Part shown: in pieces, positions 37,931 to 61,242 of the stretch
Layout of the letters: each line of letters begins with the position of its first letter
Numbering within the stretch: the first letter of the stretch is position 1
Source: Zygnema cylindricum
Taxonomy: Eukaryota > Streptophyta > Zygnematophyceae > Zygnematales > Zygnemataceae
Direction of reading: 5' to 3'
NCBI GenBank assembly: GCA_037447655.1
Contig: JBBHKE010003420.1
Location: 1 to 62,000, forward strand
DNA: 62,000 nucleotides
Notes under the pieces: generated by a model
What the model was told of the DNA's origin: nothing
Databases searched by the model: none
The model's input: the letters and a program-made list of their open reading frames with translations, nothing else
Made by a program: the position numbers and the translations under genes

Positions 37931-38021
37931 TGGCTCCCGCCAATCCATCTCCAATATCTTAATATTGGACTTATCTCTTTCCATTTTTTCCATGTTCCGT
38001 ATTTTGTTTTCCATTTTACAG

Positions 38022-38066
38022 ATCCGTTAGGTGCAACAGGACGATATCTTCTCGAAGACGGTCGTG
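38022..38066 (+). CDS. Copy A exon 2 (45 nt)
   Basis: The exon is flanked by TTTTACAG and GTAAAACC. In phase 1 it encodes PLGATGRYLLEDGR. The tail LLEDGRG resembles the end of the repeated microexons (TLEDGRG in copy B at 53,500), which suggests that exon 2 belongs to the same module family. Confidence 0.7.
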
Positions 38067-38586
38067 GTAAAACCCAATGCTCCTCAAAAGAACTAAAAGG
38101 AATCACAATTTTCTTTTCCGAAACAAAAACTAGTGTGGATATTTTCTCCGAGGAAACTTCTATCCCTCATTCTCTCTCGAACTCCCTTATTCTAAATACA
38201 TCAGCAAAAGTGTAAACGCAAAAGTGTACATGACATCAGCAACTGCTAATGCTCAATTTTCCAATTGGTGATTAATACCAAATTGTCGATTGATATCATT
38301 TGTGGATTGACATTGTTAGGATGAATAATCATTGTAATATTGTAGATTGGATCACCGACCAATAATCCTTGCGAATAAAAGACACGAAGTTGACTTACTA
38401 TTTTTTTCAACACCTTTGTTGTTCTTTTCTTTTTTCCCTCCATTTGTCTCTCTCTCCTTCTCTTCCCTATCTCTTTCACTTCTCTTTCACTCCCTCCCTC
38501 TCTTTCTCTACCTCCCTTCCCCCCCCCCTCCCCTCTCTCCTCTCTCCTCTCCCCTCTCCCCCCTCCCTTCTCCCCTCTTCACCCAG

Positions 38587-38709
38587 CCCTCCGGAGCCAC
38601 AGTTTTCGCTACAGCCCGGCGTCCCGCCCCTTCTTATCTGGTGGGCGGTGCTACCAAACCTGTCCGTTCCGCGGCACGTGCATATACGCCGGCCCTGGCG
38701 GCCGATATG
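38587..38709 (+). CDS. Copy A exon 3, cysteine module (123 nt)
   Basis: Flanked by CACCCAG and GTACCG and in phase 1-1. The product contains FLSGGRCYQTCPFRGTCIYA (C-x3-C-x5-C) and ends GGRY. Compared with copy B, about five differences are silent in this frame, more than in the alternative phase-0 frame, which supports this reading. If unspliced, the frame stops about 30 bp further on. Confidence 0.6.
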
Positions 38710-39079
38710 GTACCGATATGAACCGCGACTATAAGCTTTATTAGTTTTCTGGGGAGGGTTCTTGGCGAGGGTTTTGAGGAAGGTTTTGAGGAGGGTTTTC
38801 TTGAAGGTTTTGAAGAGCTAGGGCGGATCTTTGGAAGGTTTTTGGGAGGGTTTGTGATTTTTGGGGTGATATATGAGCTTCCGGGGTCTGATGTTGTTGA
38901 GTGAAAAGGAACAAGAAGAAAAAAGAAAAATAAAGTAGTACACAGTTTTTGTTTGAATTTTATTAAGTTTGAATCAAAATGTTCTAACGATTTAAAATAT
39001 TGTAGGGAGAAAGGTCTTCGTACTCACTTGTTACTTCTTCTTTTGTGTGTTCATTAACACAATTTTTTTGTGTTTACAG

Positions 39080-39127
39080 GACGGAGAACGATGGAAGAGG
39101 ACAGGGAAACTCTTGAAGACGTGAAAG
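39080..39127 (+). CDS. Copy A microexon m1 (48 nt)
   Basis: Flanked by TTTACAG and GTCTCT. In phase 1 it encodes GRRTMEEDRETLEDVK. Confidence 0.7.
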
Positions 39128-39306
39128 GTCTCTTTTGCTCTCTCCCTCTCTCCCTCTCTCCCTCTCTTCTCCTCTCTCCTCTCTTGCTCTCCCCCTCTCC
39201 ACGTCTCCCCCTCTCCCCCCTTTCCTTTCAATTCCTCCCTCCCTCCCGCCACTTTCTCTCTCGTCGTGTTTTGGTTTCTGATTCGCACTATTTTATGTGT
39301 TTCCAG

Positions 39307-39348
39307 GACGCGAAACAATAGAGGAGGACAGGGAAATGCTTGAAGCAG
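39307..39348 (+). CDS. Copy A microexon m2 (42 nt)
   Basis: Flanked by TTTCCAG and GTTTTT. It encodes GRETIEEDREMLEA, the 14-residue form. Confidence 0.7.
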
Positions 39349-40110
39349 GTTTTTTTCTCCTCGCTCTCTATCCCCTCGATCTCTCACTCCCTCTCACTCA
39401 CTCCCTCTCACTCACTCTCTCCCCTCCCTCTCTCCCTCTCCCACTCTCTTTTACTCTCTCCCACTCTTTGTATCCCGCTCTCTCTCGCTCCCCTCGCTCT
39501 CTCCCTCTCGTCCTCTTTCCCTCTCATGCTCTCTCCCTCACTCCCTCTCTCCCCCTTCTCCTTCTCCCCTCCTCTCTCTCGCGCTTTTTCCACCTGCCTC
39601 TCTTTTGCCCCCCCTCTCTCCCACACACACATATACATACACTTTTTTTCTCGTCGCCCCTCTTTTTGTTTCCCTCTCCCTCCCTTACCTAATTTCTCTT
39701 TTCCTATCTCTCCCCAAATTTCCCACTTGCCCTCTCTTTTCTCTCTCCTCTGTGTAGATATGTGTGTATAAAAACATCCCTAAACAGGACTACATCCCTA
39801 TACAGAACTTAGAACAGTTTTCCACATTATATTTTTACTTAAAAATGTCTTAGAGTTAAGAATTTAAAGGTTTTTTTTTTTTTCTTGTGTTTGCCTCCTC
39901 CATCATCATCCTTTATTATCACTGTTGCTCTTGTATTGCGTTTACTTATAAATTAGACACTACGAGCTCTCCCTCTATCCCTCCCTTCCTTTTCCCCTCT
40001 TTTCCCTTTCACCTCTTTTCCCTTTCACCTTTTCCCTGAATCTTCCGTTTACCTTCCTTTTCTCCCATTTATCTCCCCCTCTCCCCCCCTCTCCCGTCCC
40101 ATCCCTCCGG

Positions 40111-40211
40111 CCTGTCTGTTGTTGGGCAATGAGAAGGCAAAGGCGCTTTGCATCTGCTGCTGGGCAATGAGAAGGCAAAGGCGCTTTGCATCATTGCTGC
40201 GGGCCAAAGAG
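40111..40211 (+). pseudogene. Copy A 63-nt-type exon with a 38-bp duplication
   Basis: This corresponds to the ACLLL...EKAKALC exon of the other cassettes. The acceptor is CCGG instead of CCAG, and 38 bp starting at GGCAATGAGAAGG are repeated, giving 101 nt and breaking the frame. The donor GTCAGT is kept. Confidence 0.65.
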
Positions 40212-40559
40212 GTCAGTATAGAAAGGAGGGGAGGGAGGAGATGGGAGGGGAGGGGAGGGCTTCCAGGGTTTTGGGGAGAGTTTTGGGGGTCAAGGGGTCT
40301 TCCTGTGAGGTTTAATGTGGTAATAAATTGAATTTGATGTGGAAAAATGAGCCTTGGAAAACCAATTTGTACCAAGTTGTTGCGACAAACGGAGAAGTGA
40401 AAGAGAATAATAAAAATTTGAGATAATCATTTTAGTAATGAAATTCAAATGCGATTTAACAATGATTTCGAATATTTATTTTCAAATGTTTTATTACTTT
40501 GTATTTGTGTCTCAATTTGTTATTTATTATATTATTCCTCATTTTCATTAACTTTCAAG

Positions 40560-40604
40560 CAAGGAAATCGATAGAGGACAGGGAAACAGTTGAAGATGCG
40601 AGAG
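40560..40604 (+). CDS. Copy A microexon m3 (45 nt)
   Basis: Flanked by TTTCAAG and GTCTCT. It encodes ARKSIEDRETVEDAR in phase 1. Confidence 0.65.
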
Positions 40605-40678
40605 GTCTCTCTCTCTCAAAATTTTTGAACCTTTTAGACTTTCTGTTTTTGACACCAAACTATTTTCTGTGGTTCCAG

Positions 40679-40726
40679 GAAGGAAAACGATGGAGGAGGA
40701 CAGGGAAACTCTAGAAGAAGTGAATG
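40679..40726 (+). CDS. Copy A microexon m4 (48 nt)
   Basis: Flanked by GGTTCCAG and GTCTCT. It encodes GRKTMEEDRETLEEVN. Confidence 0.7.
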
Positions 40727-41218
40727 GTCTCTTTCGCTCTGCCCCTCTTCCTATCCTCCCTTTCTCTCTCCCTCCTTTTTCTCTTTCCCTCCAATCCCTC
40801 CCTCCTCTCCTTTCCCCTCCCTTCCTCTCTCCCTCTTTCACACTCCTGCTCTCCCTCTCCCTCTCTCTCTCCCTTTCTCTCTCATCCACTCTCTTCCTCT
40901 CCCTTTCCACCCCTATTTCCCCCTCTATCTCTATCTCCCTCTCTCTCTCCCTCATCTTTTATATCTTTATCTCCCTCCCTCTCTCCCTTTCTCCATCTCT
41001 CTCTTTCTCTTTCTCCTACTCTCTCTCCTGCCTCTTTCTCTCTCGTGCCTCTTTTTCCCGCCTCTCTCCCTCTCTTACATCTCGTCGTAATACCTGTCTC
41101 CCTTTTACCCCTCTCATGCCTATCTCTCTCCTCCCTCTCTCGTTCTCTACCCCTCTCTCCCCCTCTCCCGTCTCATCGAACCTTGGATTTTTCTTTACAC
41201 TATTTTATGTGTTTGTAG

Positions 41219-41262
41219 GACGAGAAACAATAGAGGATAGGGAAACGCTTGAAGATGCCGAA
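41219..41262 (+). pseudogene. Copy A microexon m5, donor lost
   Basis: The acceptor TTTGTAG and the module GRETIEDRETLEDA are present, but GAATTTTTTGC stands where copy B has GGAGGTCTCT, so there is no GT donor. Confidence 0.65.
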
Positions 41263-41579
41263 TTTTTTGCTCTTTCTCTCTCTTTGTCTCTCGTGTCCTT
41301 CCATCTTGTCTCTCTCTAACCTTTCACCTTTCTATCTTTTGTTTTACCTCCCCCCCTTTACTTCCAAGAGTCTCGCTTTCAACCTCTCCCCCTCCATTCT
41401 CTCTCTTTCTCACCCTGCTCCACCCTCCCAAGACTGTCCATTCACCTCTCTCGCTCACTAATAAAGGTATTATCTTCTAAAAATTTGTAGCTCTGAAATT
41501 TACATAATTTTTTTATTACCTGTTAATTTAATTTTTGGGAGTAAATTGATTTTTGATTTCAACTATTTTTTGTTTCCAG

Positions 41580-41621
41580 GTCGTGAAACAATGGAGGGCA
41601 GTGAAATACTTCTTGAAGCAG
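41580..41621 (+). CDS. Copy A microexon m6 (42 nt)
   Basis: Flanked by TTTCCAG and GTCTCT. It encodes GRETMEGSEILLEA, a diverged module. Confidence 0.65.
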
Positions 41622-42226
41622 GTCTCTTTCTCTCCTCACTCTCTATTCCCTCGCTCTCTCACTAAATCTCCCTCGCTCTCTTCCGCTCTCTCTCGCACTC
41701 TCCTGCGCTCCCGCTTTCTCCCGCTCTCTCTCGTTCTCTCCCCCTTTTTCACTTTCCCTCCCTCACTCCCCCTATCCTTCTTTCTACCTCTTTCCCTCTC
41801 TCTCTCTCTCGCTTTTTGCCCCTCACTCTTTCGCCCCCCCCCCTCTCTCACTCAGACACATACAAACACCCTCTTATCCTCGCCTCACCCTCTATTTCTC
41901 TCTCCTTCCCTTTCCCAATTTCTCTCTTCCTAGCTCGCCCCATCTCCCCCCCTCCCCCTATCTCCCCTCTCTCCTCCTTTTTGTAGATATGTTTATATTG
42001 AAAATCCCTATATAGGAATTAAACTGTTTTCGGCATAAACTTTCTTCTTTTGACGTTTTTTATTCGGAGTTTAGTTTCTTTCTTATCAATAATCTTTCTT
42101 CTCTTTGCCTCTTTCATCATCTCGCCCTCTATCCTCTCGCTTCTCTTGACGTCTTTCCTTTTCTCCCACTTATCACCCTCTCCCTCCCTCCCCCCTCTTT
42201 CCCCCTCTCCCCTCACCCCCCTCCAG

Positions 42227-42289
42227 CCTGTCTGCTGCTACGGAATGAGAAGGCAAAGGCGCTTTGCATCATCGCCGCGAGCCGAAAAG
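42227..42289 (+). CDS. Copy A 63-nt exon c3, two-cysteine module
   Basis: Flanked by CCTCCAG and GTTAGA. In phase 1-1 it gives ACLLLRNEKAKALCII followed by AASRK: two cysteines ten residues apart, in a hydrophobic-basic-hydrophobic pattern. Confidence 0.65.
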
Positions 42290-42660
42290 GTTAGAAAATA
42301 AGGGAGGGGAGGGAGGAGAGGGGAAGGGAGGGGGGGGCTCCCCGGGTTTTGGGGACAGTTTTGGGTATGGTTTTGAAAGGAGGAAGCTTTTGGTGAAATT
42401 TTGTGGAAATTATTTGAATTTGATGAAGAAGAAATGAGCCCAAGACAACCAATTTGTTGTGAAAAAAGGAGAGGTAACAGATAATCATAGCATATCATTG
42501 AGATAAAGGATTTTTTTTTGGATTTTATTGATAAATGAAGTATTAATAAATATTTATTTTCAATTTCACTGAAACTGAATAAATAGAACTCCTCTTATTT
42601 CGTTTCATTGTTTTTATTTCCCAATTTATTGTTTATAATTTTTATCCTCATTTTGATTTA

Positions 42661-42822: not shown

Positions 42823-42836
42823 AAGTTGTTCCTTAA
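42823..42836 (+). CDS. Copy A terminal exon, coding part
   Basis: After the acceptor GATGCAG the phase-1 frame gives EVVP and a TAA stop. The conserved sequence that follows, including TTTTGTAATACAATTAGAG (42,912-42,934, repeated at 55,070), would be 3' UTR. Confidence 0.55.
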
Positions 42837-46809: not shown

Positions 46810-47568
46810 GCGAAACCTTCAATTCTTTTCGTTGTTTTATTACCCGGCCGTACCCGAATTTGTTGTATTTTTTTTTGAATCACCCGGCCGAATCCGGCTG
46901 GCCCCCAAAATTTGGTAACCGTATCCGTTCTGGACCCGACGCGGGTGGGCGGTTACGGATCGGGTACGGATTCGGGTACCCGCTTGCGACCTCTGCCACA
47001 GTATCCTGAAGGGAAGCATCTTTCGCCTATGCAAGTTCCAGCTACGTCGTTTCCTCTTGCTATTGCGTAGATTCCCGGCCTCAATTTCGAATCAAGTTGC
47101 ACATGGGAGATTCGTACCATCTGAACTTTGGCAGGTTGGCCATGCAAGACGTTCGACCGTACGATCGAGCAAAGACATCCAAACGCACAAGATATAGCCA
47201 TGCCAAAGTTGCGCCATACGAACTGAATCGTACGATTGCGAGGCTGGCCGGGTTGATCGACGCCATGCAGTGCAAATCTGCCGTCCGATTAAAGATCATC
47301 GGGGCAATCACTCTGGGCCGTGAGCTGCTTCAAAGCCGGTCAACTCTCCCTTGAACTTTAGCCTAGAAAATCAATGTAAAGGCCTTTGACTTTTCCCAGA
47401 GTATTTCTTGTGTACCTGAACTTATAAATGTCGAGGAAATGTTTTAGATTATGTCATTGTGGTGGTGCAGAGAGTTAGAAAAGAGTTAAGGCAAGATACT
47501 TATACCACACTTAAAGAAGACTGTTTACTCTTAAGCACTGAATTTGGTCGGCGGATAGGAAATTAATC
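46810..47568 (+). promoter_or_regulatory. Upstream region of copy B
   Basis: About 700 bp are shared with 58,040-58,855 upstream of copy C. They contain repeated GGGTACGGAT-type motifs (46,940-46,985). A short open frame (47,097-47,354) is partly conserved in copy C (SYHLNFGRLAMQD / PYHLNFGRLVMHD), but the minus strand is equally open there, so coding is unproven. A TATA-like TATAAAT (47,423-47,429) lies 140 bp before the start codon; copy C has TGTAAAT at the same place. Confidence 0.55.
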
Positions 47569-47698
47569 ATGGCGAATTCGTTTGTTTTTAGTCTTTTTGT
47601 CGTTTTGTGGAGTGCAATGTTGTTGGCTTCTATGGCTAAGTTGGGTTTCGCGGAATCGGAAAATGTGGAAATGGAAAATGCACTTACCGGCGATATCG
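47569..47698 (+). CDS. Copy B exon 1: signal peptide
   Basis: ATG in a good context (ATCATGGCG) opens 43 codons: MANSFVF, then a hydrophobic core (SLFVVLWSAMLLASMA), KLGFA and a likely cleavage before ESENVEMEN. The donor is GTACGT at 47,699. The exon is 130 nt and ends in phase 1. Copy C exon 1 has the same length, with about eight residue differences. Confidence 0.8.
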
Positions 47699-50600
47699 GT
47701 ACGTTTTCTTCGTAAGCCGGTATTTATTATTATTATTATTATTTTTTTTCCTTCTATTCATTACATTGTCTATTTATTGCTGTTTCTTTTCTTGATTCTG
47801 GTATCGTGGTATACTCAATAATGGTGAGGATTTTGATGTTTTACTTTGGTGTTATAGACTAGAATTTTTATATGGACTGTTGAAATTTGTTGAAATTTGG
47901 TATGAATATTACTTCATGAGAAACAGCTTAACAGTTTTTAAGACCTGTAAAGATTACTATTTTTTCAGCCATTGAATCCATTATTTTTTTCTTTATCCTA
48001 TGAAATTTCACTATGACCACTGTTGATCCCACCTGAATTTTCTTTGCAGAAAAACGAAAAAAGTTTTTTTTAGTCAAGAATTCTTTCAATTTTGTTTATT
48101 TTTTTCTGTTGACGAAGGAATCTTGATATTGGACTGATCCGTTTCCCTGTGTTCCATGTTCCGTATTCTGTTTTCCATTTTCTTCTTTCAGATCCGTTAG
48201 GTGCAACTGGACGACATCTTCTCCAAGACAGCCGTGGTAAAACCCGATAGTCCTCAAAAAAACAAAAGGAATCGCAATTGTCTTTCTCAAAACCCAAAAA
48301 AGTGTGGATATCTTTCTCCGAATAAACTTCTTTCGCTCATTCCCTCTAGACTCCTTTTAAGTTTTGTAAAGCATTTATCTTCTAAGTACATTAGCAAAAG
48401 TGTAAACGCAAAACTGAACATCATATCAGCATCTGCTGACGCTTAGCCCAATGGTGATTTCTATTGTGGATTGACGTTCTCACTGTGAATAATCGTTGTA
48501 ATGTTGTAAATTAATGTAAAGAGGCGTGGATCATTGACCATTAATCCTTGCGGCGGATAAATGACACGAATTTGACTTAGTGTTTTTTTTCAACGACTCT
48601 CTTGTTTTTTTTTTTCCCCTTCCATATGTCCCTCTCTCTTCCTCGTCTCTCCCTCTTCTACCTCTCTTTCTCTCCCTCCTCTCCCTCTACATCCCTATCC
48701 CTCCTCTCTCCCCTCTGCAACCAGCCCTCCGGTTCCGCCAGCCTCGCTACTGCCCAGAGTCCCGCCCTTTCTTATCTGGCGGGCGGTGCTACCAAACCTG
48801 TCCGTTCCGCGGCACGTGCACATACGCCAGCCCCGGTGGCCGATATGGTATGGTATCGATATAAATCTCGGCTGGCATCTTTCTTGGGAGGGTTCTTAGG
48901 AGGGTTCTTGGGAGGGTTTTTGGGCGGATTTTAGGGCGGCGGATCTTCGTAAGGGTTTTTGGGAAGGTTTTGTGAGTTTCAGGGTGTTTACGAGCTTCGA
49001 AAATCAAATTCGTTGAGGAAAAAGGAACAAGAAGAATAGAAGAAAAGAAAATGAGTTCACCGTTTTTGTTTGGATTTCATTCTTGAAGTTTGTGTCGAAA
49101 TGTTTCAACGATTCGAAATGATATAAAGAAAAAGGTCTTCAAATAAGTAGCCTGTATTGACTTTTTACCTTTTTTTTTGTGTGTTCATTAACACGCAAAA
49201 TTTTGTGTTTCCAGGGCGGAGGACGATGGAGGAGGACAGGGAAACTCTTGAAGTCGTGGAAGGTTTCTTTCGCTCTCTCCTTCTCTCCCTCTCTCCATCT
49301 CTCCCTTTCCCCCCTTCTCCCCCCCTCTCCCTCTCTCCCTCTCTCCCTCTCTCCTCCTCGCCCCCTCTCCCCCTTTTTCCCTTCAATCCATCCCTCCCTC
49401 CAATTTTCTCTCTCATCGTATTTTGGTTTCTGATCCACACTACTTTGTGTTTCCAGGACGCGAAACAATGGAGGAGGACAGGGAAATGCTTGAAGCAGGT
49501 CTCTCTCTCCTCGCTCTCTATCCCCTCGATCTCTAACTCGCTCTCTCTCGCTCTCTCTCACTCTCTTGCTCTCTCCCGCTCTCTCTCGCTCCCCCTCGCT
49601 CGTTCTCTCCCTATCGTCTTTTTTCCCTCTCATGCTCTCTCCCTCACCCCCCCTCTCCCTTTTTCTGCCTCTTTCTCTCGCCCTCTCTCGCTCTCTGCTC
49701 TCCCACTCTTTCACACACACATACATACAATTTTTTTCGCCTCCCCCCTTTCTTTCCCAATTTCTCTCTTCCTATCGCTCCCCGTTCCCCCCACTTTCCC
49801 TCTCCCCCCTCTCTTCTCTGTGTAGATATGTGTATACGGAAACATCCCTTTAATTATATGTATATTTTTTTTTTTTCTTAAGAGTTTTCAAAGGCTTTTC
49901 TTGTGTTTGCCTCTTTCATCATCATCTTTCAGTATCGCTGTCACTTTTGTGGTTGTTATTTTTTATTGTGTTTACTAACAAGCTACACACTTGAGCTCTC
50001 CCTCTATCCCTCCTTTCCCTTGTCCCTCTCCCTAAGCATCCCGATGTCCTTCCTTTTTCTCACTTATCTCCCTCTCTCCGCCTCTTCCCTCCCCCTTCAG
50101 CCTGTCTGCTGCTGCGCAATGAGAAGGCAAAGGCGCTTTGCATAATCGCTGCGGGCCGAAGAGGTCGGAAAAAGAAGGAAGGGGAGGGAAGGGGAGGGCA
50201 AGGGAGGGAAGGCGAGGGGAGGGGAGGGGAAAGGAGAAGAGGGGAGGGCTCCCCGGGTTTTGGGGAGGGTTTTGAGAGTCAGGGGGTTTCCGGTGAGGAT
50301 AAATGTGGAATATTTGAATTTTGATGTAGAAAAAATGAGCCTTAAAAAAAAAAAGTGGCAAACAATGAAGTATAAGGGAGTTATAGCAAATTGATATAAA
50401 CGTTTTTTGTTACATTTTTATCGATGAACTTCCAATCCGAATTCCACAATGATTTGAAAACTTATTTTCAATCTCATTAAAAGAAAATAAATATAACTCT
50501 TACTGTCTTGTTTCTTTGTTTTTATTTATCAATTTATTATTTTTGTATCATTCCTCATTTTGATTATTTTTCTAAAAAGGCAAACGATGGAGGACAGGGA

Positions 50601-52870
50601 GACAATTGAAGATGCAGTCTCTCTTTCACCCTTCTTGATTTTTTACAACAAACTATTTTTGGTTCCATTTTTGACTCCAAACTATTTTTTGTGGAACCAG
50701 GAAGGAAGACGATGGAGGAGGACAGGGAAACTCTTGAAGACGTGAATGGTGTTTTTCGATCTCCCCTCTCCCTCACCTCCCTTTCTCTCTCCCTCCCTCA
50801 TCGCTTTCCCTCCAATCCCTCCCTCCCTCTTGCCCTTCCCGTCCATTCTCTCTCTCTCTCCCTCCCTCTCCTCCTTTTCCTCTCTGCCTCTCCCTCTCCC
50901 TCACCCTCTCTCGCCTCTCCTCCCCCCCTTGTTCTCTTTCTATATCTCTATCCCTCTCTCCCTCACCTTCTATCTCTCTATTTCCCAATCTCTCTCCCAC
51001 TCTCTCCCTCTCTCCATCTCTCTCTCCCTCTCTCTCTTTACATCTCTCTCTCCCTCTCTCTCTTTCTTACATCTCTCTCCTGCCTCTCTCTCTCTTACCT
51101 CTCTTCTCTCTCTCCTGCCTCTCTCCATCCCTCCCCCTCCCCCTCTCCCCCTCTTGCGTATCGTCGCAATACCTTTCCCCCTTCTACCTCTCATGCATTT
51201 CTCCATCCTACCTCTCTACCCCTCTCCCCCTCTCCCGTCTCGTCGTAACTTGGATTTTTATTCACACTGTTTTGTGTTTGCAGGTCGCGAAACAATGGAA
51301 AAGGATAGGGAAACGCTTGAAGATGCCGGAGGTCTCTCTCTTTCTCTCTATTTGTCACTCTTTGCCTCCTTCGTCTCTCCATCTTGTCTCTTCGCCCTCT
51401 CTCTTACCTTTCAACTTTCTTTTCTATCCCCCCACTTCTAGACTCTCACTTACCCCTCCATTCTCTCTCTCGCTCTCAGCCTGCCTCCCCTCCCCCTAGC
51501 CCGTCAATTCACCTCTCTCGCTCACTATTAAAGTTCCTTTTTGTTACTTTTTAATTTACTTTTTGGCTTTAAATTGGTTTTTGATTTCAACTATTTTTTG
51601 TTTCCAGGACGAGAAACAATGGAGGAGGGCAGGGAAATGCTTCTTGAAGCAGGTCTCTCTCTCTCTCTGTCCTATTCCCTCGCTCTCTCACTAAATCTCT
51701 CTCGCTCTCTCACGCTCTCTCCCACTCTCTCTCGCTCTCTCCCACTCTCTCCCGCTCTCTCCCACTCTCTCCCGCTTTCTCCCACTCTCTCCTGATCTCT
51801 CTCGCTCTCTCTCGCTCTCTCTCGCTCCCTCTCGCTCTTTCCCGCTCTCTCTTGTTCTCTCCCACTCTCTCTCCCTCTCTCGCTCGTTCTATCTCTCTCC
51901 CGCTCTCTCTCTATCTCCCGCTGTCTGTCGTTCTCTCTCTCTCTAGATTTCCCTCTCATACTCTCTCCCTTACTCTCCCTCTCCTTCTTTCTACCTCTTT
52001 CCCTCTCTCTTTTTGTCCCTCCTTTCGCCCTCCCCTCTCTTACTCACACACATATACACACCCTTCTCCTCGCTCCTCCCTCCTCTCCCTCCCTTTCCAA
52101 ATTTCTCTCTTCATAACTCTTCCCATCTCCCCACACTTCCCCTTCTCTCCCCTCTCTCCTCATCTGTGTAGATATGTGTATATAGAGACATCCCTATATA
52201 GGGATTAAATTGTTTTCCATATTAGTTTTCATTTTTTATTCGGAGTTTAGAATATTTCTTCAGAAGCTTTCTTCCCTTCGCCTCCTTCATCTTCTCTCCC
52301 TCTATCTCTCTATTCCCTTGCCTTTTTTTTCTATTTGCCCTCTCTCCTCCCGATGTCCTACTTTGTCGCCCACTTATCTCCCTCTCTCTCCCCCTCTCCC
52401 CCCCTCTTCCCCCCTCTCCCCTTCTCCCCCTCTCCCTCCCTCCTCTCCCTCCTCTCCAGCCTGTCTGCTGCTGAAAAGTGAGAAGGCAAAGGCGCTCTGC
52501 ATCATCGCCGCGGGCCGAAGAGGTCAGACGCAACAGGAGGGGAGGGAGGGGAGGGGAGGGGAGGAAAGGGCTCCCCGGGATTTGGGAAGGGTTTTGGGGA
52601 GAGTATTGGGGAGGTTTTTGAAATTCAGGAGCTTATTGGTAAGAAATATGTGATTATCTTAGCAAATCATTGCGATTTTGTTTGGATTTTATTAATCAAT
52701 GAAGTATTAATGAACATTTAATTTCAATTTCATTGAAAGCGAATAAATAGAAATTTTCATTGTTTTGTTTCTTTGTTTTTATTTCCCAATTTGATAAATT
52801 CTCTATTACTCCTCATTTTGATTAACTTCCTAGGAAGGAAAGCGATGGATGATATAGAAACAATTGAAGA

Positions 52871-52919
<49 letters not shown>

Positions 52920-54991
52920 GTTTTTTTATTTTTGACTCCAACCTATTTTTTGTGGCTCCAGGAAGGAAAACAATGGAGGAGGACAGGGAAACTCTTGAAG
53001 ACGTGAATGGTCTCTTTCACTCCCCCCCTCTCCCTCTCCTCCCTTTTTTCTCTCCCTCTATCGCTCTTATGTCCCTCCAATCCATCCCTCCCTCTCTCCT
53101 TTCCCCTCCTTTCCTGTCTCCCTCCTTCCCTCCCCCCTCTTCCTCTTTCCCTCTCCCCTTGCCCTCACCTTTGGCCCTCTCTCTTTTCCCCCATTTTTCA
53201 CCCTCTCTATCTCTCCCTCTCTCCTTTCCCTCACCCTCTGCCCCTCTCTTTCCCCCCATTTTTCACCCTCTCTATCTCCCCCTCTCTCTCATCATCTATC
53301 TCCCCCTCTCCGTCTCTTCTACATTTTTCTCTCTTAAATCTCTCTCACCTACCTCTCTGTCTCCTGCCTCTCTCTCTCTTCCGCCTCTTGCCTGCTTCTC
53401 TCCTTCTCGACCTCTCCCGTCTCGTATTAAATTGGATTTTGAATCACACTATTTTTTTTTTTGCAGGGCGGGAAACAATGGAGGAGGATAGGGAAACGCT
53501 TGAAGACGGAAGAGGTCTCTCTCTCTTCTCTCTCTCATCTTCTCACCACGCTCTCTCACTCATCGCCCTCAGTCTCTCCCGTTCTTTCTCGCTGTCCCGC
53601 TCAATTTGATCTCCCACTCTTGTTCTCTCTCTCTCCCTCTTACCCTCTCTCTCCCTCCTCTCTCCCAATCTCTTCCTCATTCTCTCTCTTTCTCGCCCTC
53701 CATCTTTCATTTCCCCCCCTCTCTCTCTCTTTCTATTTCACATAAAACATCTCTTCTTTACCCTGCTCTCTTTCATCATCATATCTTGTTATCCCTGTTC
53801 CCTCTATACTTGTCATCTTGTCTTTGTCGCTTTAAAATGGGTTGAACACTGGACACTCCTCGTCCTCCACCTCCTTTCTCTCTTACCCTCTCCCTTCTAT
53901 CTCACCCTCTCCCTAAACCATCCCCTCTTTTCCCCACCTCCCCCCTCCCCTCCTCCTCCCTTCTCCCCCCCCCTTCCCCCCCTCCCTCCCTCGTCCCAGA
54001 GCTCCTCCGCGGTTCTCTCCAGCCCTCCGGCGTCACGTGCATTGATGGGCGATGCGGCGTTCCCGGTTACTCCAGGCGCGTAATGCTCGGGTGAGGACCT
54101 GGGCTGGGAGAGGGAACCAGGAGCTGGCTGAGGGGGAGGGAGAAAAACGGGGGTGAGGGAGAAAGGAAAGGTTGGAACTATCAGAATCGTGATTTGACTT
54201 CTATAGGGTAGGGGAGGGGAGGGATTTGGGGAGGGTTTAGGAGTTACAAAGGTTACAATGAATTCGGAGCGGTTTTTGGATCCAGGTTTCGGGGATCATT
54301 GGGAGGTTTTGTGTTTTTTTTATCAGTTGGAAAATTAAAATTATTTGGAGGTCCTGCAATATATCAACCTCCGAATATTAAGTTTTTGGGAAAATTTGAA
54401 ATAATTAACCGTTTTTCAATCAGAATGTTACGATGATTTTTTACTTTTCATTTTGATTAATATTATTTGATGGGTTATTAGCAAGGCGAACGATCTAGCC
54501 GCATAGGGAAACTCTCGAGGATGCTGGAGGTCTCTCTCTCCCTCTCTCTCCCTCTCTCTTCGTCTTTTTTCGCTACCTCTCCTCGTCTCCCTCTCCTTCA
54601 CTCTCCCTCCTCTCTCCCTCTCTCTCCGCCTCTCTTCCCCTCTCCCCACCTCCCCCTCTCTCCCCTTTTTCTCCCGCTCTCTCCCCCTCTCTCTTTCGCC
54701 CTCTGTGTCCCTTTCCCTTTTTCCCTCCCCCCTCTCTCCTTATCTCTTCCTCTCCCTCCCTCTCTCTTTCTCCCCTCTCAACACCTTCACTCCCTCTCTC
54801 CATCTCTTCTTTCTCATCCATTCTGTAATTGCTAAGGCTTGACTATTGGCAAAAAAAATCAAAGGATTTTGTTTGTTTTTGTTTGTTTTTTTTTTCAACA
54901 TTGTCTCTGCTTTAATTCATATTTTTGTTTTAATTTATATTTTTCTTTCTGCTTTTTTTATTGTTTTTATGTCGCAGAAGGATTTCTTTAA
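47569..54991 (+). CDS. Microexon gene copy B: predicted secreted modular-repeat protein
   Basis: I do not recognise the family. The model has 13 intact coding exons: a 130-nt first exon with signal peptide, a 45-nt exon 2, a 123-nt cysteine exon, seven intact microexons of 42-48 nt, two 63-nt cysteine exons and a terminal exon. Four further units are degenerate. Every internal exon starts after AG, ends before GT, has a length divisible by three and sits in phase 1, so any subset can be skipped without changing the frame. The mature protein would be an acidic, probably helical string of GRxTMEEDRETLED modules broken by cysteine modules. It is presumably exported through the secretory pathway. 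Splicing has not been verified, and a role cannot be stated. Confidence 0.65.
48192..48236 (+). CDS. Copy B exon 2 (45 nt)
   Basis: Flanked by TCTTTCAG and GTAAAACC. It encodes PLGATGRHLLQDSR in phase 1-1, joined to exon 1 through a GAT codon. Confidence 0.75.
48725..48847 (+). CDS. Copy B exon 3, cysteine module (123 nt)
   Basis: Flanked by GCAACCAG and GTATGG. In phase 1-1 it contains RYCPESRPFLSGG and RCYQTCPFRGTCTYA, four cysteines in total. The C-x3-C-x5-C pattern is identical to copy A. Read through without splicing, it would end at a TAA 17 bp later. Confidence 0.65.
49215..49262 (+). CDS. Copy B microexon m1 (48 nt)
   Basis: Flanked by TTTCCAG and GTTTCT. It encodes GRRTMEEDRETLEVVE. 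Confidence 0.7.
49457..49498 (+). CDS. Copy B microexon m2 (42 nt)
   Basis: Flanked by TTTCCAG and GTCTCT. It encodes GRETMEEDREMLEA. Confidence 0.75.
49822..49850 (+). other. Conserved block with strong acceptor (possible poison exon)
   Basis: TGTGTAGATATGTGTATA at the end of a long CT tract recurs at 39,756, 41,984 and 52,164. Read after the AG in phase 1 it gives DMC(V/I) and a stop in the copies at 39,756 and 52,164. It could be an alternative terminal exon or simply a conserved intron motif. Confidence 0.35.
50101..50163 (+). CDS. Copy B 63-nt exon c2
   Basis: Flanked by CCTTCAG and GTCGGA. It encodes ACLLLRNEKAKALCII then AAGRR in phase 1-1. The same exon recurs at 52,460 and, in copy A, at 42,227. 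Confidence 0.7.
50580..50615 (+). pseudogene. Copy B microexon m3, degenerate
   Basis: The module QTMEDRETIEDA is readable, but bases are missing at both ends, so the acceptor phase and the donor no longer fit the series. Confidence 0.55.
50701..50748 (+). CDS. Copy B microexon m4 (48 nt)
   Basis: Flanked by GAACCAG and GTGTTT. It encodes GRKTMEEDRETLEDVN. Confidence 0.7.
51284..51331 (+). CDS. Copy B microexon m5 (48 nt)
   Basis: Flanked by TTTGCAG and GTCTCT. It encodes GRETMEKDRETLEDAG. Confidence 0.7.
51608..51652 (+). CDS. Copy B microexon m6 (45 nt)
   Basis: Flanked by TTTCCAG and GTCTCT. It encodes GRETMEEGREMLLEA, with one extra leucine relative to m2. Confidence 0.7.
52460..52522 (+). 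CDS. Copy B 63-nt exon c3
   Basis: Flanked by CTCTCCAG and GTCAGA. It encodes ACLLLKSEKAKALCII then AAGRR in phase 1-1. Confidence 0.7.
52834..52876 (+). pseudogene. Copy B microexon m7, donor replaced by a (TC)n repeat
   Basis: After CTTCCTAG the module GRKAMDDIETIEDI is open, but the 3' end runs into a (TC)n microsatellite (about 52,873-52,913) and the GT donor is gone. Confidence 0.6.
52962..53009 (+). CDS. Copy B microexon m8 (48 nt)
   Basis: Flanked by GGCTCCAG and GTCTCT. It encodes GRKTMEEDRETLEDVN, the same protein module as m4, with silent differences at the DNA level. Confidence 0.7.
53467..53514 (+). CDS. Copy B microexon m9 (48 nt)
   Basis: Flanked by TTTTGCAG and GTCTCT. It encodes GRETMEEDRETLEDGR, whose end resembles exon 2 (LLEDGR). 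Confidence 0.7.
54023..54093 (+). pseudogene. Copy B third cysteine-type exon, diverged
   Basis: It follows CTCTCCAG and begins CCCTCCGG like exon 3. In phase 1 it meets a TGA after seven codons. In phase 0 it stays open and gives TCIDGRCGVPGYSRR. I treat it as a degenerate or alternative exon. Confidence 0.45.
54482..54529 (+). pseudogene. Copy B microexon m10 with in-frame stop
   Basis: The length (48 nt), acceptor (TTATTAG), donor (GTCTCT) and end (RETLEDAG) are kept, but the fifth full codon is TAG (54,496-54,498). Inclusion would end the protein after ARRTI. Confidence 0.6.
54978..54991 (+). CDS. Copy B terminal exon, coding part
   Basis: After TCGCAG the phase-1 frame gives EGFL and TAA. 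The following 3' UTR is conserved with copy A up to about 55,950, including TTTTGTAATACAATTAGAG. Confidence 0.55.
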
Positions 54992-55959: not shown

Positions 55960-57189
55960 TTGGCGTAATGTTGATAGTTTGGTTATTTGGTTTACGGCGA
56001 TAAACAATAAAATTGGTTTATGGCGATAAAACTTTATCGATAACCAACACTTGTTTTTCAATCACAACCTCGTATTAACAATTTGATAGGTGTGCAATGA
56101 AAAAGTTGTTTGTGACTACACCAACGTTAATAGTGATACATTGAAATCTTAGGTCCAGCATTTCAGCAATCGAGAAGGGATTCTCGGAGCCACGAACCAA
56201 TGGACAAGGCACAGATCGCTATGAAAGCGAAATGAAACAAGTCACAATGGATAGATCACACAAAAGTAGAAAACCCAAATGAAACAAAGCCACAATGGAT
56301 AGATTACAAAAAAGTAGAGAGTAGAGAGAAGATAGAATGCGATAGAAAAAGGTCCCAATGTAGAAAGTAAAAAGGTAGTCTCGTAATTAACTTTGTCACT
56401 TTATAATCAAGGGCCCACAAGGCGAAAGCCTATGTGAATCCGAATAGGTAGTACAATTGTTTGGAAAATCTAATTTGATATTCAATTGATTTACTTCCCT
56501 TGCTAAATTCTAATTTCTTGGGAAGAAATGCTAGTTACCGACAATACGTGAAATGGATTGTTGGCATTTATTGATGAGTAGGTGCTTAGAGCACTTACTC
56601 TACTATTAGCTTCCTAATGTATAAATAAAGAAGCGATCTTGGATGGTCGCACATTTTATACCTTTGTTTTGAGGGACGCCTTCAGGCTATTCTAAAAAAA
56701 CGTTCCTCAGGGAAGCGGTATAAGTCTTGGGACACTGTGTGAATCGGCATTTTGCTCAATTGTTTTCGTTCAACTATGTTGTGAATGTTTGGCTTCCTTG
56801 TATACGTTCGACTACACTTTGGTTTCGTCGGCAGTACTTCTTGTCATCATTCATCATTGTACTACATTGTTAGAGTCTTAACGTCCAAGTAGTTAGTGTA
56901 GTAAGAAATGAGAGGAAGAGACAAAGTTTTGTATGAAGGAGAGTTTCGACGTAATATGTTTGAAGTTGGCCGATGAGATGTGTCAATGAGTAATTTTTTT
57001 GAGTTGTGAATGCTTCCGTTGTGGTAATCTTTTGTGATGTTGCAAGCCATCCAATCATTTGGTGTTAGTAAAAATGATTCGATTTTAGATGGAGGTTTTT
57101 TTTTCTGGTGGATTTTTGATTTTTGGTTTTTGATGGTTTTTTTGGTCAGTTTATGAGGGTCAAAATTTAAGGGCGTTAAATAGTGAGAT
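55960..57189. other. Spacer between copies B and C, possibly LTR-like
   Basis: The similarity to the 3' flank of copy A stops at about 55,955. The next 900 bp begin TGTTGTTGGCG, contain TATAAATAAAG (about 56,621) and have a possible CA end near 56,865, so a solo LTR is possible; no target duplication was found. A 169-codon minus-strand frame (57,371-56,862) has no recognisable domain and low complexity, and I do not call it a gene. Confidence 0.35.
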
Positions 57190-57645
57190 ACGATTCTCAA
57201 CACTAATACCGACTCACGGTGGACTAAACCATTGTGTCGGTTGTCAAATATGCGTGAACATTTATATTTTCCTTTTTGAAAGCCACGACCTAAAAAATTG
57301 CTACCGGTCACGATATTATGCTCATGTGAACACGAATAAACGTTCAAACAACTCAAAATTATCGTCGTCATAACGCTAGTGTGATATAACTAGTGATTTG
57401 CATTGAGGCCCAATGCCGATTTTCGATTTGTACGTCATTTTGAGTACCCGATAATCAATATATCGCCTCGCTATATCAAGAATCTCAATATCACGATATT
57501 TAGCCGAATATATCGACCGATATTATGATATACTTTTTGGCTACATATCGAAGTGACGTTAAGTCATTTTTTTTTTCAAAAGCTCCCTACCCCCCCCCAC
57601 CCCCCGGAGAGTCTTCGTGTCCTCAGTGGTGTTGGGGGGGTGCCA

Positions 57646-58035
57646 TGAAATTATACACAAGAGAAAGATCAATGCATTTGAAAGAGAAATTGATTTGTAT
57701 TTGGGATGATTTCATTAAGTGAGAAGAGTCACTTATATACAAAATATACAGTGCTAATTACTGTGGAGTCTAAACGTTCTACGGTGCACTGTAACAAAGG
57801 TATCTTAGTCTAGATTCTAATAAATGTATGTAAGACAAAAGAAAGACTGGACCGACGGTCAAAGGACTAGACCGACGGTCAAAGGACTTTGTACGTAGAA
57901 AAGACTAGACCGACGTATGTAATGAAAAGTACAAAAGACTGTACCAACGTATAAAAGTACGGACAAGACCACCGACACATATAATGAAAGATACGTATGT
58001 TCCAAAAGTGAATTGACGCTAAATGACTATTAACA
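57646..58035 (-). mobile_element. Family E LTR (minus strand)
   Basis: On the minus strand it runs from TGTTAATAGTCATTTAGCG to TATAATTTCA and is a shortened relative (390 bp) of 37,406-37,930. The sequence beyond its 3' end (57,645 down to about 57,580) begins TGGCACC, the place of a primer-binding site, but no gag follows. It separates the two parts of the upstream region of copy C. Confidence 0.75.
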
Positions 58036-58855
58036 AAAGGTTCCGGATCCGACGCGGCAGGCCGGGTACGGATCGGGTAGGGATTAGGGTAGCAGATTTT
58101 GACCTCTGCCATGTGCTAGAGGTAGCAATCTGGTACCCGAATCTGGCCGTACCTGCATGTTTTTTTTGTTTATTTTGAATTACCTGGCGGAATCAGGCCA
58201 GATCCCAAAATTTGGCACCCGAATCCGTTCCAAATCCGACGTTGTCGTCCGGGTACGGGTCGTGTATGGATTCGGGTACCCGATTGCAACCTCTGCATGG
58301 AGGTAAGCATTTTCCTGCAGTGCAAATTCCAGCCACGTCATTTCCGCTGCTATTGCGTAGATTCCCGGCCTCAATTTCGAACGAAGTTGTACTTGGGAGA
58401 TCCGTACCATCTGAACTTTGGAAGGTTGGTCATGCATGACATTTTACCGTACGATCGAGCAAAGCCATCCAAACGCACGAGATATAGCCATGCTAAAGTT
58501 GCGCCGTACGAAGTGAATCGTACGATTGCAAGGTTGGCCCGGGGTATTGACGCCATGCAGAGCAAATCAGCCGTCGATTAAAAATTTCATCGGAACAATC
58601 ATTCCGCGCCATGAGCTGCTTCAAAGCCGGTCAGCTCTCCGTTGACCTACAGCCTAAGAAAATCAACGGAAAGGCCTTTGACGTTTCACACAGTATTTCT
58701 TGTGTATCTGAAATTGTAAATGTCGAGGAAATGTTTTAGATCATGTCATTTTTGGTGGGTTGAGAGAGTTAGGAGTAACGACAAAAAACAAATACCATAG
58801 TTGAAAGAAGTTGAATTCTAAGCACTGAAGTTGGCTGGCGGAGAGGAAAGCAATC

Positions 58856-58985
58856 ATGGCGAAATCGTTTGTTTTTCGTTTTTTTGTTGTTTTGTGGAGT
58901 TCAATGTTGTTAGCTTCTATGGCTCCGTTGGGTTTCGCGGAATCGGAAAATGTGGAAATGGAAAATGCGTTTACGGGTGATATCA
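58856..58985 (+). CDS. Copy C exon 1: signal peptide
   Basis: It encodes MAKSFVF, a hydrophobic core (RFFVVLWSSMLLASMA), PLGFA and ESENVEMENAFTGDI, with cleavage expected after GFA. The donor is GTACGT at 58,986. Length and phase equal those of copy B. Confidence 0.8.
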
Positions 58986-61242
58986 GTACGTTTTCTTTGT
59001 AAGCGGTTATTTGTTAATTCTTGTTTTTTCGTTCTATTCTTTATATTGTTGTTTTGTTGCTGTTTTTTTTTTGAATCTTGTACCATGTTATGCTCAGTAT
59101 TGGTGAGGATTTTGAAGTCTTACTTCTATGGTGTTATAAAGTAGAAGTTTTATAGGGACTGTTGAAATTTGGTAAGAACCTTACTGCATAAGAAAAACAG
59201 CTTAACAGTTATTAACAAATGCGAAGATTATTATTTTTTTCCCTATTCTATGAAAGTTGACTATGATCACTGTTAATCCCACCTGTATTTTTTTTTCAGA
59301 AAAACGATCATTCAGTTTTGTTTATTTTTTTTCTGTTGATGAAGGAATCTTAATATTAGACTGATCTGTTTCCATGTGTTCCATGTTCCTGTTGGAGGAA
59401 TGTCCACTTCGGACTCCACACGTGTGTATCGCAGTAAATGCTGGTCACGCCAGTGCGCCGTTCATTACCGTAAATTCGGTTTCAGGCGCTTGCATGCACA
59501 ATCGGCCGGGTAGCTCAGTTGGTAGAGCTAGTGTATGTCTAACACAAGGTCCCGGGTTCGATCCCCGGCTTGGCCATATAACCAAAGTTTTCACTTTGGC
59601 GCCCATGCGATATGTTGAATATCGCCGATCCTCATCTGTCCTGTATTCTGTTTTTCATTTCCTATTTTCAGATCCGTTAGGCGCAACTGGGCGACATCTT
59701 CTCGAAGACGGCCGTGGTAAAACCCAACACTCCACAAAAAGAACAAAGGGAATCGCAATTATCTTTCTCAAAACCAAAAATAGTGGAAATTTTCTCCAAA
59801 TAAATTTCTTTCTCTCATTCCATCTAGATTCCTTTGAGTTTCGTAAAGCATGTATCGCATGTAACTTCTAAATATATTTGCAAAAGTGTAAATGCAAAAC
59901 TGTACATGATATCAACATTTGTAAACGTTTAGTGTTCCTAATGGTGATTATTACGAAATTATTGATTGATATCATTTGTGGATTGACATTGTTAGTGTGA
60001 AGAATCATTCTGTTGTTGTAAATTGATGTAAATTAGTCTGGATCAGCGATCTTTAATCCTTGTGGATAAAAGACACGAATTTGACCAAGTGTTTATTTTC
60101 AGCGAATCTCTTGTTCTACTATTTCCCCCTCCATATGCCACTCTCTCTTCCTCGTCTCTCCCTCTTCCACTTCTTTTTCTCTACCTCCCTCTCTCCTTTA
60201 CGTCCCTACCCCTCCCCCTCCCCTTTCCCCTCTCACCCAGACCTCCAGAGCCGACGTCGTCGCAGCTCCGCAGAGTTCCGCCCCTACCTGTCCCGCGGGC
60301 GGTGGGATGAATACTGTCCGTACCGCCGCCGTTGCATATACACTGCCCTTTATCCCTTATCTCCTTGTCTCCCCTGTCTCCCTTGTTACCCCGTCTCCCC
60401 TATTCCCTTGTCCCCCCTATTCCCCTGTCTCACCTGTCTCCTTGTCTTCCCTGTCTTCTTGTCTCCCTTGTTCACCTGTAGGGGTTTGTGGAGGGGTTTT
60501 GAGAAGGGTTTTAGGGAGGTTTAGCAAACGGGAGGGGGTGGGGAGGGAGGAAGCGAGGGGTTTGTGGAGGGGTTTTGGGAAGGGTTTTAGGGAGGTTTAT
60601 GGGGAGGGCAGTGTTTTGGGGAAGGGAGAGGTTTGGCACCAGATTGTGAGATTGGAAGCTACACTGCTCATCATTATTAGTGCTATTTCTTTTATTTCGC
60701 CACTTAAAGCATCATTTCTCCGTACACACTTGTCGGATTGTGAAACGGAGACTGACAATAGGAAGGTGAGAATCTTGCCTTCCAATAGCAGCTATCGGAT
60801 CGACATCCCGACAAGTGTGGACGAAGTAAAATGTTTTAAATGGCGAGAAAAACTTTAACGTTAAAAACGATGAGCGGTGTAGCTTTCAAGAGGGTTTTGG
60901 GGAGGGTTTTCAAATAGTTTTTTGGGAGGTTTTTTGAGGAGTTTCAAGTGTTTGGGGGATGCATTTTGGGAAGGTTTTGGGGAAGGGAGGGTTTTGAGGG
61001 GGGGGGGGGGTTTTGAGGGAGGGGGGGGGGGGGGGGGGGGGGGTGGGGTGGGTGGGAAGGTAGGATTTTGGGGAGACTTTTGGTGAGGTTTCTCGGAATT
61101 TTAGGGAGTGGATGGTTATGGAGACGTATTTTTTTTCATCATCTCAATATTTTTTAAAATTACCTTTTTCCTTCCACTTTTTTTATATCGGTTTCATGAT
61201 GCAGAACGAGTTTTTTCCAAAGGATCTTTATTCAAAGTTTGA
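58856..61242 (+). CDS. Microexon gene copy C, condensed
   Basis: Exon 1 (58,856-58,985), exon 2 (59,672-59,716), an exon-3 remnant (from 60,241) and a terminal exon (61,205-61,242) are present in the same phase as copy B. All 42-48-nt microexons and 63-nt exons are absent, so the copy could encode only a short secreted peptide. Intron 1 is enlarged by a 246-bp insertion with a tRNA-like sequence. The exon-3 donor is lost in an expansion of CTCCCTTGTC repeats. A transcript that joins exon 2 to the terminal exon would still be in frame. Confidence 0.55.
59393..59638 (+). mobile_element. 246-bp insertion in copy C intron 1
   Basis: Copies A and B run uninterrupted through CCATGTTCCGTATT. In copy C the insertion lies between TCCTGT (59,387-59,392) and TCCTGT (59,639-59,644), a likely 6-bp target duplication. 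It holds a tRNA-like sequence in its middle and two small hairpins after it (CCAAAGTTTTCACTTTGG and GATATGTTGAATATC). It could be a SINE or a related tRNA-bearing element. Confidence 0.7.
59504..59576 (+). tRNA. tRNA-like sequence, predicted anticodon GUC
   Basis: 73 nt fold as a cloverleaf: acceptor GGCCGGG/CTTGGCC with two G-T pairs, D arm GCTC/GAGC, anticodon stem AGTGT/ACACA with the outer pair mismatched, and T arm CCGGG/CCCGG with TTCGATC. The loop ATGTCTA gives GUC (Asp), but position 37 is U, which is unusual, and the body does not look like plant tRNA-Asp. It may be a SINE head rather than a working tRNA gene. Confidence 0.55.
59672..59716 (+). CDS. Copy C exon 2 (45 nt)
   Basis: Flanked by TATTTTCAG and GTAAAACC. 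It encodes PLGATGRHLLEDGR, joined to exon 1 through an AAT codon. Confidence 0.7.
60241..60340 (+). pseudogene. Copy C exon 3 remnant
   Basis: After CACCCAG the phase-1 frame gives EFRPYLSRGRWDEYCPYRR and RCIYT. Compared with copies A and B, one cysteine is replaced by W and the end with the donor is missing. Confidence 0.55.
60340..60480 (+). repeat. CTCCCTTGTC-type minisatellite
   Basis: Imperfect copies of about 10-18 bp (CCTTGTCTCCC, CCTGTCTCC) fill 60,340-60,478 where the end of exon 3 should be. G-rich GGGTTTTGGGG runs follow from 60,480. Confidence 0.7.
60662..60879. mobile_element. MITE 3 / foldback element in copy C
   Basis: TA target dinucleotides (60,660-60,661 and 60,880-60,881) flank an element whose ends CACTGCTCATCATTATTAG and CACCGCTCATCGTTTTTAA are imperfect inverted repeats. 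The pairing continues inward for about 85 bp (ACACTTGTCGG against CCGACAAGTGT). Its termini resemble MITEs 1 and 2. Confidence 0.75.
60992..61051 (+). repeat. Long G runs
   Basis: Almost uninterrupted G (about 61,022-61,042 without a break) within the G-rich part of the copy C intron. Run length may be unreliable in the assembly. Confidence 0.8.
61205..61242 (+). CDS. Copy C terminal exon, coding part
   Basis: After GATGCAG the phase-1 frame gives ERVFSKGSLFKV and TGA. A short insertion relative to copies A and B removes their early stop. The similarity in the following 3' region continues to about 61,700. Confidence 0.5.

Follow-up and report, generated by a model that had tools for sequence, protein, structure and literature searches.

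The first 62 kb (hereafter the window) of a 200,264-bp contig from the streptophyte Zygnema cylindricum (JBBHKE010003420.1, assembly GCA_037447655.1) carry three gene copies, A, B and C, of a family whose members are best read as coding for secreted, positively charged peptides, probably antimicrobial ones, made as precursors that would work like those of the antimicrobial peptides (AMPs) of the Ib-AMP type. We consider it highly probable that the genes form a genuine coding family, secreted and exon-modular; the fuller reading, in which a tandemly duplicated nuclear family encodes secreted polyproteins that are cut into such peptides, is, in our view, evenly balanced. The exon layout and its conservation, a hydrophobic, signal-peptide-like start and an alternating pattern of charge and cysteines are directly visible in the DNA, and from them we infer splicing, secretion, processing, disulfide formation and antimicrobial activity.

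In the precursor that we propose, a signal peptide and a short leader would be followed by alternating Cys/Arg-rich pieces (about 21–59 residues) and acidic spacers, whose units would mostly measure 14–16 residues, each piece being encoded by its own phase 1-1 exon. The precursor would enter the secretory pathway, where the acidic units would neutralise and space the cationic pieces; proteases would cut near the module borders, and the cationic peptides, joined by disulfide bonds, would then work extracellularly, their most likely role being antimicrobial. That the cut-out cationic peptides are the working products is about an even call, and their antimicrobial action is a little less probable than that.

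Extent and layout of the gene family

The initial annotation of the window had described three gene copies, a number that grew to at least 14 related loci when the genome (352.8 Mb in 2,689 contigs) was searched with the joined translation of copy B. This search gave 45 matches at E<=10, counts of this tool being lower bounds, and 12 of them correspond to the signal-peptide exon (E 1.3e-5 or better), nine on the contig of the window and three on other contigs (C693, C1440 and C1969). The family thus comprises at least 11 loci on the contig of the window, named A to K, of which A and F were counted by their module exons, and the three elsewhere. On the contig, A–F, H and K lie on the forward strand and G, I and J on the reverse strand. 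Joined Cys modules used as a genome-wide query gave 14 matches, eight of them at E 1.3e-6 or better and all eight on the contig of the window. The weak matches outside it are on C1969 (E 0.004), C291 (E 0.003, with three stops), C2108, C2264 and C753 (range E 0.003 to 3). Module matches on C799, C750 and C1354 (E 0.47 and above) were discarded as chance, a motif scan of stretches there having revealed no module exon.

A full copy consists of a signal-peptide exon, a short exon 2, internal exons that are all in phase 1-1 and a last exon that in most cases reaches a stop codon immediately. Ten copies have an exon 1 of 127–130 nt, whose product is MANSxVxxISVVLWSSMLLASMAxLGxAESENVEMENALSGDI or a variant of it, with a hydrophobic stretch; as the initial annotation had stated, this exon is present in copies B and C (Table 1). 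Its reading frame is open in the copies that were translated, and its identity between copies amounts to 82% over aligned letters (36 pairs). The identity extends upstream of the ATG, where nine copies share 73% of positions in the first 150 nt, 70% from -300 to -151, 58% from -500 to -301 and 45% from -800 to -501; within intron 1, the value is 64% for the first 150 nt and 56% for the next 150. This conserved upstream block precedes each ATG (e.g. window 47300–47568), and two more pieces of it, for which no signal-peptide exon was found, lie at contig positions 81045–81258 on the forward strand (L032) and 63911–64100 on the reverse strand (L031). Exon 2 measures 45 nt in most copies (DPLGATGRHLLEDGR) and 63 nt in the copy on C1969.

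The terminal exon with four codons reported for copies A and B reads EVVP* and EGFL*, respectively, and a stop falls within five codons in seven of the nine aligned last exons (A, B, D, E, I, K and the copy on C1969), whereas the frames of C and J run on further. The remainder resembles a 3' untranslated region, with indels between copies that are not multiples of three; several such indels were seen by eye, which led us to discard a protein reading of this exon in a different phase.

Acidic and cysteine-rich modules

The acidic exons are mostly 42–48 nt long (39–90 nt overall), and the unit that they code for is GRxTMEEDRETLEDxx; genes D, E and F have one such exon lengthened by DREILE-type repeats to 66–90 nt. 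Exons of 42, 45, 48, 63 and 123 nt with AG/GT borders and phase 1-1 had been proposed for copies A and B, and all were recovered. The repeated module GRxTMEEDRETLED of the initial annotation is likewise present, but it represents the acidic half only, the 63- and 123-nt exons encoding a separate cysteine-containing cationic module. A protein-profile scan of the contig that was blind to splice sites located 54 acidic cores. AG stands exactly at the phase-1 acceptor in 46 of them, against 6.3% of positions drawn at random from the two strands of the contig, and is combined with a phase-1 GT near the end of the core in 40, against 1.4%; the profile seeds were exons found by their borders, and 25 of the 54 cores, all with both borders, are identical to a seed. 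Among the 29 remaining cores, 21 have the AG and 15 both borders. Of the 14 cores without both borders, we place seven in the extended exons of D, E and F and one in an exon of 39 nt; the other six are missing a border. When the contig was reversed, none of the acidic cores scored as high as 18, as compared with 83 overlapping hits on the real contig.

Conservation between copies follows the exon borders and the codons. In 26 acidic exons of 48 nt, identity is 0.84, 0.83 and 0.69 at codon positions 1, 2 and 3, and it drops beyond 20 nt to 0.38 in the upstream and 0.42 in the downstream flank. The ratio of non-synonymous to synonymous substitution rates (dN/dS) is 0.45 for exon 1 (paralogues, all pairs of ten copies, leaving out those on C693 and C1440), 0.51 for exon 2 (one pair), 0.52 for the Cys exons (seven chosen pairs, cut to the alignable part) and, for the acidic exons, 0.24 (the 26 exons of 48 nt, all pairs) or 0.19 (12 chosen pairs), values biased downwards, and partly built in, because these exons were collected by their motif, so that exon 1 is the fairer case. 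All four exon types have ratios below 1. The initial annotation had further held that the module is kept between copies and the introns are not; the exons are indeed better kept, whereas the introns of A and B still allow an alignment, at 70% over 4.1 kb and at 69% over 1.1 kb when the exons are counted in.

The Cys exons (63–177 nt) are Arg-rich and carry the motif CPxxRPYxxxxRCxxxCP...C, as in ALRFRQPRYCPESRPFLSGGRCYQTCPFRGTCTYASPGGRY of copy B and VLQRCPSTRPFWYQGRCVRVCPRNVRGRCRRVSPGFA of gene J; double forms occur in I and J. Exon models for counts of charge and cysteines were hand-picked from candidate exons. On average, 18 modelled Cys exons have a charge of +8.0 (+4 to +17) and 3.9 cysteines, and 43 modelled acidic exons a charge of -3.4 (-8 to -1) and no cysteine; motifs at 77514, 120025, 171516 and 186763 and the Cys exon of copy C are outside the 18. 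An alignment of 14 Cys modules shows no variation at C17, C21, P22 and C29 (positions counted in the first module) and hardly any at C5 and P10, the canonical spacing being C-x11-C-x(2,3)-C-P-xn-C. The Cys pattern alone is not specific, since it gave 12 hits on the reversed sequence against 30 on the real one. An AlphaFold2 model of one Cys module of gene J, computed with 14 alignment rows, has a mean pLDDT of 75.9 and a pTM of 0.45, with one beta-hairpin predicted at low confidence and no helices.

The two kinds of exons alternate. Gene I, for example, consists of the signal exon, exon 2, a Cys exon, three acidic exons, a Cys exon, two acidic exons, a Cys exon, two acidic exons and the stop. 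Since all borders share one phase, whole exon-intron units are gained and lost without frame shifts, and duplication and decay of units are apparent in the DNA itself: gene J contains a 996-bp duplication, 99.5% identical, that carries a Cys exon, several acidic exons of A and B are broken, and no acidic exon was found in copy C. A 38-bp tandem duplication lies at window 40115–40192, within a presumptive 63-nt Cys exon of copy A that seems to have lost its acceptor AG.

Proposed precursors of cationic peptides and rival readings

The alternation of acidic and cysteine-rich cationic modules points to a peptide precursor of the Ib-AMP or pipid-frog kind. The Ib-AMP precursor of Impatiens balsamina contains a signal peptide and six basic four-cysteine peptides with acidic regions of 16–35 residues between them (PMC10136942). 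The family shares with it the signal peptide (judged by eye), the repeated basic Cys peptides and acidic spacers of similar length; it differs in that CCX8CX3C is not found and none of the 14 Cys modules has a CC pair, the pieces here being longer and more diverse. The AMP genes of pipid frogs (magainin, CPF, hymenochirin) have tandemly duplicated peptide exons, for which alternative splicing was suggested (PMC3899252); signal peptide, acidic spacer and tandem duplication of peptide-encoding exons are common to both, whereas the frog peptides belong to other families in a different lineage. The layout had also been said to recall the bicycle genes of aphids and the micro-exon genes (MEGs) of schistosomes, and in exon layout the first likeness is closer than it seems at first sight. 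Almost all internal exons of bicycle genes start at codon position 2, there termed phase 2, the genes have been reported in aphids, phylloxerans and scale insects, and the CYC motif is cysteine-tyrosine-cysteine (PMC9168663). Many small internal exons here start at the same codon position, a border that we call phase 1, and the two systems are alike in their secretion, which is predicted here, in the order Cys-Tyr-Cys within repeated units, the aligned modules here having Cys-aromatic-Cys, and in forming large, fast-changing gene sets. Unlike here, alternating acidic spacers are not described for bicycle genes in the text at hand (PMC9168663), and the host lineage differs. The second comparison fits less well: schistosome MEGs are also secreted and made of many symmetric exons, which account for most of the coding sequence, but these exons measure 6–36 bp (PMC5825161), smaller than the acidic (39–90 nt) and Cys (63–177 nt) exons found here, and the two families are not known to be related in sequence. 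Each of the plant alpha-hairpinin precursors combines a signal peptide with several four-Cys modules (PMC10136942), which form helical hairpins. The double module of gene I (139708) has the spacing C-x3-C-x11-C-x3-C, like their C-X3-C-Xn-C-X3-C, whereas single modules (e.g. those of B and J) lack this motif and the J module was modelled, at low confidence, as a beta-hairpin. On single-module spacing or lineage, though not on motif, membership of the alpha-hairpinins or the bicycle genes seems unlikely. Given the likeness to Ib-AMP, pipid-frog AMP and bicycle genes, we therefore judge that the family most probably encodes precursors of secreted cationic peptides; the secreted, modular and symmetric-exon character put forward in the initial annotation is supported by the sequence.

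Sequence and structure databases gave little to set beside these comparisons. Gene J scores above the cut-off on Fer4 (4Fe-4S ferredoxin; 28.8 bits against 21.1) in four stretches, the best of them 11 residues around CVRVCP, and the best single Cys module reaches 14.4 bits (E 0.034). We take this for a short-motif match, and the predicted secreted location argues against a Fer4 identity. No relative emerged from searches of PDB sequences, whether the query was the acidic model, that of gene I or the alignment of Cys modules, the last giving only nine ferredoxins at E 0.6 and above. A Foldseek search with the J Cys-module model gave one match (E 7.5), and VIA-align on that chain none. No description of the gene family was found in the literature searched, which left out most subscription papers.

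Several points weigh against the precursor reading. No processing site was identified, and no antimicrobial family occurs among the Pfam and NCBIfam matches. The protein database, whose coverage of spliced eukaryotic proteins is uncertain, returned no match at E<=1 for an acidic-only model of gene J (7992 candidates sharing most words were scored) and none at E<=10 for residues 100–240 of the fuller J model (3997 candidates). The gene models are drawn from genomic DNA, and the signal peptide was called by eye. Exon 1 was not found for A and F in the genome search with the copy B translation; copy C has its first two exons, one exon of the Cys type and a last exon, but no acidic exon was found in it; and gene H contains an assembly gap. 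Broken acidic exons occur in A and B (cores at 41227, 50584 and 52842, and an in-frame stop in the exon at 54482–54529). To these are added the motif bias of the acidic dN/dS and the values near 0.5 for exon 1 and the Cys exons, which indicate weak constraint. Finally, the donors of the acidic exons, described below, are odd, which makes the inclusion of these exons uncertain.

A somewhat unlikely alternative is that the uncut protein, a chain of furin-like cysteine repeats with acidic linkers between them, works in the extracellular matrix, in adhesion or in binding, e.g. in the mucilage, at the wall or during mating contact. It draws on the scores of gene J on PF15913 Furin-like_2 (26.3 bits, cut-off 28, E 9.2e-6), PF00757 Furin-like (18.4 bits, cut-off 26.8, E 0.002) and GF_recep_IV (E 0.0022), the likeness to the furin-like repeats being confined to the part around CVxxCP. 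All three scores are nevertheless under the Pfam cut-offs and partial, the gene I model matches none of these families, only one of 14 single modules matches Furin-like (E 1.3e-4), and the Cys modules have a strong positive charge and differ among copies both in length and in number. An improbable reading, to which we give little credit, is that the cluster is decaying, most copies being pseudogenes and the exon repeats remnants amplified with pyrimidine-rich introns. Broken exons in A, B and other copies, the missing exon 1 of A and F and the exon 2 acceptor of gene G, which looks lost, would agree with it; against it stand the exact borders kept in most acidic cores, the open exon 1 and dN/dS below 1.

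Splicing itself may be part of the system. Any combination of the symmetric exons could be spliced in frame, and it was proposed for schistosome MEGs that cassette exons give many secreted isoforms per gene; we regard such a splicing-driven variant system as quite unlikely here, and it is also unlikely that regulated splicing combines the exons at all. In its favour, besides the symmetry of the modelled internal exons, the small acidic exons mostly have donors of the type AG/GTCTCTCTC (GTCTCT type), with a purine at +3 in 7/43 and G at +5 in 0/43, as compared with 9/18 and 15/18 for Cys exons, 8/8 and 7/8 for exon 1 and 6/6 and 0/6 for exon 2; five hand-placed introns of four LHC-family genes from the same genome (GTGACT, GTAAAG, GTGAGA, GTAAGT and GTATGA) have a purine at +3 in all five cases. 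Yet the mean number of matches to CAG/GTAAGT (of nine positions) is 5.12 for acidic donors, hardly worse than for Cys (5.39), exon 2 (4.83) and exon 1 (5.88) donors, the LHC introns having 6–7; acidic donors are thus odd and not simply the weakest. The pyrimidine fraction of the sense strand is 0.85 both downstream of acidic and upstream of Cys exons, and G makes up 0.41 downstream of Cys exons. Base pairing between these C/U-rich and G-rich flanks is predicted around the Cys exons (mean 63 pairs, at least 36 in 17/18; mean 7 for acidic exons), but shuffled flanks pair equally well (64), so that the pairing is a matter of base composition, and a selected RNA structure was rejected. The evidence is, moreover, genomic. 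A combinatorial peptide arsenal, in which each cationic peptide or acidic spacer would be a symmetric cassette exon, mixed by regulated splicing and joined by new ones through unit duplication, seems doubtful; its proposed handles would be the GTCTCT-type donors that the acidic cassettes share and the pairable flanks of the Cys cassettes.

If the family does encode precursors of cationic peptides, it would give the Ib-AMPs and the AMP genes of frogs a streptophyte counterpart among acidic-spacer polyproteins. Like MEGs and bicycle genes, it would show secreted proteins made from small same-phase exons, here in a photosynthetic host. It would also offer a system in which to test how a secreted repertoire changes faster through a common exon phase, odd donors and the duplication of units. 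The exon-wise construction looks like a new way of building defence-peptide precursors, and automatic gene finders may well miss genes of this layout.

Gene copies and other features of the window

Table 1. Predicted exons of copies A, B and C (window positions).
Copy	Feature	Position	Strand	Remark
A	Exon 2, DPLGATGRYLLEDGR	38022..38066	+	Donor GTAAAACC; signal-peptide exon upstream not found
A	123-nt Cys-rich cationic exon, ALRSHSFRYSPASRPFLSGGRCYQTCPFRGTCIYAGPGGRY	38587..38709	+	
A	Acidic exon, 48 nt, GRRTMEEDRETLEDVK	39080..39127	+	
A	Acidic exon, 42 nt, GRETIEEDREMLEA	39307..39348	+	
A	Acidic exon, 45 nt, ARKSIEDRETVEDAR	40560..40604	+	
A	Acidic exon, 48 nt, GRKTMEEDRETLEEVN	40679..40726	+	
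A	Acidic exon, 42 nt, GRETMEGSEILLEA	41580..41621	+	
A	63-nt Cys exon, ACLLLRNEKAKALCIIAASRK	42227..42289	+	
A	Last exon, coding part EVVP*	42823..42836	+	
B	Exon 1, signal peptide MANSFVFSLFVVLWSAMLLASMAKLGFAESENVEMENALTGDI	47569..47698	+	Donor GTACGT
B	Exon 2, DPLGATGRHLLQDSR	48192..48236	+	
B	123-nt Cys-rich cationic exon, ALRFRQPRYCPESRPFLSGGRCYQTCPFRGTCTYASPGGRY	48725..48847	+	
B	Acidic exon, GRRTMEEDRETLEVVE	49215..49262	+	
B	Acidic exon, GRETMEEDREMLEA	49457..49498	+	
B	63-nt Cys exon, ACLLLRNEKAKALCIIAAGRR	50101..50163	+	
B	Acidic exon, GRKTMEEDRETLEDVN	50701..50748	+	
B	Acidic exon, GRETMEKDRETLEDAG	51284..51331	+	
B	Acidic exon, GRETMEEGREMLLEA	51608..51652	+	
B	63-nt Cys exon, ACLLLKSEKAKALCIIAAGRR	52460..52522	+	
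B	Acidic exon, GRKTMEEDRETLEDVN	52962..53009	+	Second occurrence
B	Acidic exon, GRETMEEDRETLEDGR	53467..53514	+	
B	Broken acidic exon	54482..54529	+	In-frame stop
B	Last exon, coding part EGFL*	54978..54991	+	
C	Exon 1, signal peptide MAKSFVFRFFVVLWSSMLLASMAPLGFAESENVEMENAFTGDI	58856..58985	+	
C	Exon 2, DPLGATGRHLLEDGR	59672..59716	+	
C	Cys-type exon, DLQSRRRRSSAEFRPYLSRGRWDEYCPYRRRCIY...	60241..60366	+	Donor uncertain
C	Last exon, coding part	61205..61242	+	If phase 1

Intron 1 of copy C contains a sequence resembling a tRNA-Asp (GTC) gene (window 59504–59576, forward strand), where a stretch of about 250 bp is skipped in the alignment to copy B. Along the contig, segments of at least 85% pyrimidine are mostly within the family genes, on the sense strand; lesser amounts occur elsewhere on the contig, e.g. 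at 105–110, 130–135 and 150–155 kb (4–5%), and at two loci on other contigs (L048, 4%; L050, 3%), and the value at 125–130 kb reflects an assembly gap.

Frames of Copia-type retrotransposons fill a large share of the window's left portion. Within the stretch at 12337–16460, the frame 13557–16460 matches RVT_2, integrase and gag_pre-integrs; further frames of this type were recognised by eye at about 8488–9467 (reverse strand), 19936–22821 and 27949–32267. Elsewhere in the genome, the LHCII is of the green-plant type; it comes closest to the moss entries 8htu and 7xqp (about 460 bits), which lead the other single-domain chains, and chain 9vfj_2 reaches a higher score (549.7) with a match scattered across several stretches. 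The chlorophyll a/b-binding family has 88 matches, with tandem arrays on contigs C519, C2590, C1116, C610 and C1077 that include shorter genes, which we take to be ELIP-like.

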